Origin: Actinoplanes sandaracinus
Lineage (GTDB): Bacteria > Actinomycetota > Actinomycetes > Mycobacteriales > Micromonosporaceae
Direction of reading: 5' to 3'
Assembly: GCF_030009775.1 (NCBI RefSeq)
Contig: NZ_JASCTH010000016.1
Span: 124,001 to 188,000, forward strand
DNA: 64,000 nt
This document shows positions 6,178-9,100 of this stretch, one piece after another. Below the pieces are notes generated by a model, which saw only the letters and a program-made list of their open reading frames with translations, ran no database searches and was not told where the DNA came from. The first letter of the stretch is position 1, and every line of letters begins with the position of its first letter. The translations under genes and the position numbers were made by a program.

Positions 6178-9100
6178 TCATTCTCCCCGGCCCCCGGCGT
6201 CGAGTCGCTGGTCCAGCAGGTGCAGCGGGGCCGCCCGCACGCCGGCGGCGTCGAGCGCATCCCAGTAAGCGGCGGCGTCACCGGGCGTCACCGGGCCACG
6301 CACCAGGGGCAGTCCTGGGACAGCGGCGTGCAGCAGCGACTCCAGCTGGCACGACGCGATCGACCCCGGCAGGTGGCGTTTCACCGACGGCAGCCCCGGG
6401 GCCGCCTCCCGGCCGGTCCGTCCGCAGTCCAGCAGGCCACCGCCGACGATCAGCACGTCCCCGCGATCACGCATCCGGGCCAGAGCGCGGCTGGTGTCGA
6501 AGCAGTGCGGGAACGAGTCGTCGACCAGGATCGTGCCGGGATGCAGGCGATCGACGTCGAGGGTGCGGGGGCCGCTGCTGGTCGCGGCGATGATGACGTC
6601 CGCCCGGTAGACGCCCTGAGGATCCGTCACGATCTCCACCGGAACCGCGATCCCCGACGCCGTCTCGGTGAGACGCGGGACGGCCGCCGGCACGTCACAG
6701 AGGATCAACGCGGCCGGGGGCTCGGCCGCCCGGGCGAGCAGCAGGCTGAGCGAAGACGTGCCGATCGACCCCATGCCGAGCACGGCGACGACGCATTCCC
6801 CCAGCTTGCGGTCTCGGGCGGCCAGCGCCGAAAGAACGGTGCGGACGACCGCCGCGGCGGTCACCGCATGCCCGGTGGTGAGGTGAGCGCCGGAGCGGAG
6901 GTACGGGGAAACGGCCGTCCCGTAGCCGGTGTTCGCCGGGATCATGCCGGCCAGCGAGACGGTCCGGGCGCCGTGCGAGGCGGCCAGGTCCACCGCTGCC
7001 GCCGCGTGTTCCGCCAGGTCGGCGTGGTTCAGTTCGTCGGCGAACCGGGGCAGGGCGATGAAACCCGACCGGCCCAGCGGGGTGTCGACGGTCTCCAGCA
7101 GGCGCGGCCGGCGGTCGGGGAACAGCATCGTGCGGATGGTCTCCCGGTCCAGGGCGGGCAGCACCCGCCGGATCTCCTGCGGGAGGGCTGCGGCCAGGGT
7201 GGCCAGTTGCCCCGGCGCCGGTAGGTAACCGACCAGGCCCGCATCCAGCCCCGCAGACTTCACCGCAGCCTTTGCCGTAGCCTCCGTCGCTGTCTTTGCC
7301 GTAGCCGCTGTCATCGCCGTCGCCTTCGGCGCTGTCATCGGCGCTGTCATCGGCGCTGTCATCGGCTCTGTCATCGGCTCTGTCATCGGCTCTGTCATCG
7401 GCTCTGTCCTTGGCGCTGTCTCAAGGTCGCGGGACAGCGCTCGCGCGATGTGGGTCAACCGTTCCCGCGGCAGGCGGGAACGCAGCGTCAGGCGAAGCCC
7501 GCCGTCGACGGGACGGACCGCCAGCAAGACGTCGGTGCCGGGTGGGACGGCGAGTTCGGCGTCCGCATCGTCCCAGGTCAACCGCAGAGTCTCGCCTTCC
7601 GGAGAACCGAGCGCCCCGAAATCCAGATAGGTGAAGAAGTACCGCCACCCGCGCGGCGCCGTGAACGTTCCGGCCCGGGCGGCGGTGACAGCGTCCGCCA
7701 CCTCGGTCAGCCCGGCGCCGGGATCGGGGCGAACCGCGACCGCTGTCGCACACGGCCCGAAGATCCGGCCCAGATCGGGCAGGGCGTGATCACGACCGGT
7801 CACCGCGACGCCGATCACCGGGCGAGGACTGCCGGTCACCGTCGCGAGCGCACGACGGTACGCCGCGAGCACCGGCACGAACGGTGTGGCGCCCACCGCC
7901 GCGGCCCGTTCCCGCAGCACCGCCACATCGTGCGCGCCCACCGTGAAACCGGCCGTGGTGACCGGTCCCCCGGCCCTCATCGGCCCACCGTCGTGCGGCG
8001 CCACCTCGGCCGTCCGGTTCGCGAGCAGCGCCACGTAGTCCCGGAACGTCGCCCGCAACGGTTCCAGCCGGTGCCCGTCATAGGCCGCCAGCAGCTCACG
8101 CATCAGCAGCGCGACGCTGTAGCCGTCACCGGCCAGATGATGCGCGTGCGTCAGCAGCACATGCTCCGACGGCCCGTACCGGAGCAGCCGCAACCGCACC
8201 AGCGGCCATTCCGCCGGGTCGAAGCGGTGCTCCCGCTCCGACGCCAGCTCCTCGTCGAGCGCCCGCGGCGAAGGGTCGTAGCCGACGGTCAGCCGGGCGG
8301 ACGGCAGTTCCCGCTGCACCGGCGGCCGCACGTCGGGCGGGAAGACCGTCCGCAGCATCGGATGCCGCGCCACGAGCACGTCCACCGCCCGCTGGAACCG
8401 CTCCAGGTCGAGGGGCCCGCGCAGCCGCGGCGCCGCCAGCCAGGTCGGCGGCGTCCCCATCGCGTCCGCCAGCAGGAATCCCCGCTGTGTGAGGGTGACC
8501 GGGAAGTCCCCGGCCGTCGCCGGGCCACCCATCTCCGCCGCCACCGGCACCTCGATGACCGGCACATCGACCGCTGCCGCATCGATCACGGCGGCCAGTT
8601 CGGCGAGGGTCCGGTGCCGGTACAGAACCGTGGGCCGGGGCAGCACCGGCCGGTGCCCGGCCAGGCTCGTGAACAGCTCCAGCACCCCGATCGAGTCACC
8701 GCCCAGCGCGAAGAAGTCGTCTTCCCGCCCGACCGTCGCTACACCGAGTTGCCGCGCCCACAGCCCGGCGAGCAGTTGCTCGGTCGCGGTCTCCGGCCGG
8801 CCCCGCTGGTCTCGGCCGTCCTGCTCACCCTGACCGGCCCGTTCGGTCCGCTCGCCATGGCCGGTCCACTCACCTCGCGGGACTTCGGCGGGTGGCACCA
8901 CCCGGAGCGACGCCCTGTCGATCTTCCCGGTGGCGGTCAGCGGTAACTGCCCCACAACCTCGAACCGGCCCGGCACTAGATAGTCCGGCAGCAACCCCGC
9001 CAGGTAGGCCCGCAGCGAAGGCCCGTCCACGGACGACGACTGCACCCAGGCGACCAGCCGCCGTCCCTCGACCCGCACAGCGACCCGCTCCACCGCCGGA

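Follow-up and report, generated by a model that had tools for sequence, protein, structure and literature searches.

The stretch of Actinoplanes sandaracinus DNA analysed here (64,000 nucleotides of contig NZ_JASCTH010000016.1, positions 124,001 to 188,000; the window) raises the question of how a synthase built from fatty acyl-AMP ligase (FAAL)-like, polyketide synthase (PKS) and non-ribosomal peptide synthetase (NRPS) parts releases its chain. The synthase is encoded by one minus-strand open reading frame (ORF) and has 4567 amino acids, with TTG taken as start (Table 1). Pfam recognizes two AMP-binding, KS, AT, KR, three carrier and two C-superfamily domains, and no model above its cut-off in the last 360 residues; the sole Pfam row inside this region is OCD_Mu_crystall (E 0.066). 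No thioesterase (TE) matches at the C terminus, and a search of the whole protein at E ≤0.001 gave no SDR-type thioester reductase there, the SDR-type rows falling on the KR. The preliminary description of this locus had seen in these residues a domain resembling cyanobacterial acyl-ACP reductase (AAR) that could replace a TE or SDR-type R domain. The motifs it listed are all present in the order given, and the release position without either usual domain was borne out. Taken as a whole, the locus is best explained by a chain-release domain of a one-gene FAAL-like-PKS-NRPS that acts by NADH-dependent reduction, an explanation with about an even chance of being right. That the domain depends on a cysteine and binds NAD(H) is very likely; whether the outcome is reductive, at the aldehyde level, is evenly balanced.

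The AAR fold extends over the whole chain of the domain, which profiles and structural models show to be of AAR type and to belong to the clan of the TADs, the release domains of the carmabin, vatiamide (VatR) and hectoramide (HcaD) NRPSs. Among solved structures the carmabin TAD comes closest, with 29.3% identity over 341 columns and a profile E of 2.6e-79, and the likeness to TADs is full-length in both profile and fold. Identity to AAR itself (TIGR04058; PDB 6JZQ/6JZU/6JZY/6JZZ), a standalone enzyme and not part of an assembly line, is 21.3% over 300 columns, and the TIGR04058 model (cut-off 449.7 bits) did not reach the domain in a scan of its own genome to E 10 or by hmmscan to E 1. MAFFT alignments place Cys4511 at the catalytic Cys294 of AAR; the HMM alignments to AAR stop short of this residue. 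The cysteine, earlier misnumbered 4509, is kept in 168/168 relatives aligned. The fold and the catalytic cysteine thus stood. The statement that no NRPS or PKS with such a release domain had been described did not: a domain of the same kind from the carmabin NRPS is in PDB 9E4S/9E4U/9E4X/9E50/9E56, released 2025-02-26, and the VatR and HcaD relatives are treated in PMC10949194. For the actinobacterial branch, no study was found in the literature.

What separates the branches is seen in an alignment of 312 sequences: 161 actinobacterial synthase domains, seven intermediates, 121 TADs (the best 120 of 364 matches plus the PDB sequence, identical to P0202), 21 reductase-type sequences (AAR, PigE and 19 of 24 standalone ORFs) and two plasmid-borne relatives, L089 and L090. 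The position of Cys4511 is Cys in 312/312. Asp4396 of the LCDV motif (161/161), His4338 of TTGH (160/161) and His4459 of DDSxPHC (158/161) are kept in the actinobacterial sequences and in 120/121 TADs, but in 0/21 reductase-type sequences, AAR having TTGN in place of TTGH. The nucleotide motif is LCDV in the window domain and the TADs, LTARN in AAR and LVGR or LAGR in the three standalone relatives shown. An NADPH-type basic residue after strand beta-2 is not found in the window domain; there is instead the acidic Asp4396 of NAD type, together with an intact dinucleotide loop. The LCDV motif therefore points to NADH, which by motif comparison would be likelier than the NADPH that had been proposed; in this respect, too, the preliminary description probably has to be revised. 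A catalytically dead domain with a scaffold role, in line with the fact that no product or activity is known, is highly improbable in view of the invariance of Cys, Glu and Asp (each 161/161), the near-invariance of both histidines and a nucleotide-loop Gly in 160/160 actinobacterial sequences.

TTGH, LCDV, DDSxPHC and Arg4469 are common to the window domain and the TADs, and together with the carmabin TAD as closest solved relative they speak for a different outcome: Cys4511 takes the chain, ammonia or an amine attacks, and a C-terminal primary amide leaves, in which case NAD(H) may be structural or may cycle redox-neutrally via an aldehyde or hemiaminal. An amide forms the C terminus of carmabin A (PMC6164609), and VatR/HcaD-type domains are believed to offload through terminal amidation, by a mechanism described as unstudied at the time of writing (PMC10949194). 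We regard amide release as a tentative possibility, since the active sites and the architecture differ. The residue three positions after the cysteine is Glu in 161/161 actinobacterial and 21/21 reductase-type sequences versus Ser in 120/121 TADs and 7/7 intermediates (Glu in L089, Ser in L090), and the residue before the cysteine is Ser in 160/160 actinobacterial sequences versus Gly in 120/121 TADs; the window domain thus reads Ser-Cys-x-x-Glu where TADs read Gly-Cys-x-x-Ser. In a maximum-likelihood tree of 82 of the aligned sequences, rooted on AAR, the actinobacterial clade (support 98) is sister to a group of TADs, intermediates and L090 (support 100), with L089 outside both. TADs directly follow the PCP, whereas here the distance from carrier motif to cysteine is longer because C2 lies between (median 822 aa, n=120, versus 406 aa, n=114 of 120; motif-based, with one outlier per set). 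The actinobacterial system is also distinct in being a FAAL-like-PKS-NRPS on one gene.

NADH-dependent reduction finds its models among AAR-type enzymes. AAR forms an acyl-Cys294 thioester that is then reduced by NADPH (PMC7089970). For PigE there is evidence of the reduction of a thioester intermediate to an aldehyde, which is then aminated (PMC8341465), and the TR domain of TamH takes an ACP-bound C12 chain and uses NADH, not NADPH (PMC9594044). The N-terminal domain of PigE and the C-terminal domain of PtTamH (TamH compared by description only) are likewise AAR-type domains of natural-product pathways with thioester intermediates, but they are fused to aminotransferases and not to the end of an NRPS; the window domain scores 51.3 bits with the PigE model NF053554 (cut-off 850), and Pfam finds no aminotransferase in the synthase. 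Common to AAR and PigE and not found in TADs, Cys-x-x-Glu favours reduction without proving it. The FAAL-like domain would load a fatty acid; after one extension and ketoreduction, this would be coupled to a single amino acid carried by the last PCP. Before release, C2 would act in some way on the chain bound to the PCP. The chain would then be transacylated from the PCP to Cys4511, and hydride from NADH would be transferred to the thioester with the assistance of Glu4514, so that a beta-hydroxyacyl-amino aldehyde leaves or a product is formed from the aldehyde on the spot.

Several points weigh against reductive release. The nearest pathways with known products, those of carmabin, vatiamide and hectoramide, are linked to C-terminal primary amides (PMC10949194, PMC6164609), and so the aldehyde release of the preliminary description stays conditional. 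The motifs TTGH, LCDV and DDSxPHC are those of TADs and not of AAR or PigE; much of the active site is therefore TAD-like. The assisting role of Glu4514 is putative: neither 'E297' nor 'Glu' appears in the main text on the AAR structure (PMC7089970), and, since amide formation by TADs is reported in PMC10949194 as a belief, the Glu/Ser contrast has yet to be linked to a chemistry. No aldehyde-using gene is conserved beside the synthase (80 loci downstream, 18 upstream). Finally, C2 with its intact HHxxGDG, present in 118/118 full-length synthases, has no explained role. If C2 itself released the chain or modified the PCP-bound residue, the AAR/TAD-like domain could be a dehydrogenase acting on the product, for example on an imine or cyclic intermediate; the family matches that support this fall short of the required scores (21.5 bits against 500; 12.6 bits against 24) and the invariant cysteine at the AAR position would be unneeded, which makes it improbable.

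The synthase as a whole is near-invariant. Among 118 full-length synthases (117 relatives >3200 aa and that of the window), active residues are kept in 99-100% for KS, KR, C1, C2 and the three carriers and in 92-98% for AT. The adenylation domain code, its positions assigned by hand after the PheA register, is DARSHGLINK in 109/118 and DARSHGLVNK in 9/118. The fatty acyl-AMP ligase model NF006624 scores 375.5 bits over the whole protein, below its cut-off of 600, and matches best at the first AMP-binding domain. Neighbouring genes are not conserved: downstream, any family occurs in at most 13/80 loci, upstream in at most 3/18. ORFs related to the downstream genes of the window (families recognised by eye) occur in only 4-5/80 loci each, all Actinoplanes. 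The synthase is thus probably a one-gene pathway that makes one conserved amino-acid-containing lipid. With 4567 aa it is longer than the best 120 of 369 relatives (2742-4376 aa); in-frame tandem repeats in its linkers probably add to this length.

Table 1 Features of the synthase locus; domain borders within the synthase are approximate
Feature	Position	Strand	Basis
Downstream genes: sulfotransferase, class IV aminotransferase, DeoC-type aldolase, GntR/UTRA regulator	2628..6173		
Synthase ORF, FAAL-like-ACP-KS-AT-KR-ACP-C-A-PCP-C-AAR/TAD-like domain	6178..19881	-	Pfam, motifs
FAAL-like loading domain (first AMP-binding domain)	18202..19881	-	Pfam AMP-binding; NF006624
Tandem repeat, 30-bp x 3.3	18088..18185		
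Loading ACP	17677..17919	-	Pfam, motifs
Ketosynthase (KS)	15871..17394	-	Pfam, motifs
Acyltransferase (AT)	14842..15810	-	Pfam, motifs
Tandem repeat, 66-bp x 4.3	14225..14508		
Ketoreductase (KR)	13192..13719	-	Pfam, motifs
Tandem repeats, 18-36-bp arrays	12878..13121		
Tandem repeat, 30-bp x 3.2	12345..12439		
ACP of PKS module	12127..12354	-	Pfam, motifs
First condensation domain (C1), HHAAGDG	10492..12123	-	Pfam, motifs
Adenylation domain, 10-residue code DARSHGLINK	8902..10389	-	Pfam, motifs
PCP of NRPS module (GGDS)	8587..8799	-	Pfam, motifs
Second C-superfamily domain (C2), HHxxGDG kept, between PCP and release domain	7327..8514	-	Pfam, motifs
Tandem repeat, 12-bp x 9.6	7306..7420		
C-terminal AAR/TAD-fold release domain, residues 4208-4567	6181..7260	-	profile/structure comparison
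TTGH, residues 4335-4338; His replaced by Asn/Ser in AAR, PigE and standalone relatives	6868..6879	-	alignments
VLGMGSIGTSS dinucleotide-binding loop, residues 4367-4377	6751..6783	-	sequence
LCDV, residues 4394-4397, acidic end of strand beta-2, putatively NAD(H)-type	6691..6702	-	motif comparison
VDDSFPHCFD, residues 4453-4462; DDSxPHC common to TADs, not in AAR/PigE	6496..6525	-	alignments
Cys4511, equivalent of AAR Cys294 and carmabin TAD Cys2238	6349..6351	-	alignments
Glu4514 (Cys+3); E in actinobacterial clade, AAR and PigE, S in TADs	6340..6342	-	alignments

The nearest relatives of the synthase are from Actinoplanes. With the domain in its full-length context as query, 1357 candidates were scored and 369 proteins reached E ≤1e-3; those named among the best 120, which were examined, belong to Actinoplanes, Couchioplanes, Catenuloplanes, Micromonospora and Streptomyces. 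With the domain alone as query there were 81 matches, many of them partial proteins. A genome collection yielded 126 relatives, and 80 loci were retained; besides Streptomyces and Actinoplanes, it contributed Nonomuraea, Microtetraspora, Ornithinimicrobium and a Nocardioidaceae metagenome-assembled genome. In the Nocardioidaceae genome the synthase frame is interrupted by stops (broken gene or assembly error). The near-invariant lone synthase that ends in the domain occurs in Streptomyces, in Actinoplanes and in several further actinobacteria. In the genus of the window, as grouped by the search tool, 24/67 genomes have the domain at E ≤1e-40. Six of these 24 have a single stop within the match, G441 and G463 match in two pieces, and G424 matches more weakly; stops and split matches may reflect matches that run beyond the natural stop, errors in the assembly or broken copies.

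A phylum-wide sample of 396 genomes gave 28 with a match, four to a long synthase and 24 to a standalone relative. The standalone ORFs have open frames of 359-458 aa and are all in small genomes (0.8-2.8 Mb). TTGN or TTGS occurs together with Cys-x-x-Glu in the 19 that were fetched, and an aldehyde-forming reductase is a possible function. L089 (11878-13074; Cys-x-x-Glu, DDSQPYCW) is a standalone relative on a Streptomyces plasmid and lies upstream of genes for an acyl carrier protein and a ketosynthase. L090 (7584-8873; Cys-x-x-Ser), of TAD type, is a standalone relative on a Pantoea plasmid, with a luciferase-like monooxygenase gene on one side and two NRPS genes on the other. The TAD query matched 364 proteins among 3735 candidates; those named among the best 120 are for the most part NRPSs of cyanobacteria, including one annotated as VatR, while Gemmatimonadota, Binatia and Thermodesulfobacteriota contribute one match each and Chloroflexi groups two. 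Many TAD-bearing NRPSs (P0228, P0230, P0243 and others), including some from Nostoc, Microcoleus and Dolichospermum, also have a PilZ domain (PF07238). Three PKS proteins (P0278, P0299, P0321; KS, AT and carrier, KR in two) match the TAD query as well, and the domain is therefore not confined to NRPS modules.

The kind of domain is known from its cyanobacterial relatives. Since no Pfam model reaches the domain above its cut-off, a synthase of this type may be taken to lack a release domain, despite the 369 database proteins that match in one search. It is tempting, if rather speculative, to suppose that the actinobacterial clade is a reductive, aldehyde-releasing AAR-type termination of NRPS/PKS lines that evolved apart from SDR-type R domains, and that TADs were derived from reductases of this kind by a Glu to Ser change at Cys+3, with the retained NAD site used for redox-neutral amide formation. 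If this is true, a single residue would mark where release turned from aldehyde to amide. Cys-x-x-Glu versus Cys-x-x-Ser offers a testable marker of reductive versus amide-forming release, and the use of NAD(H) by TADs, if they make amides, becomes directly comparable.
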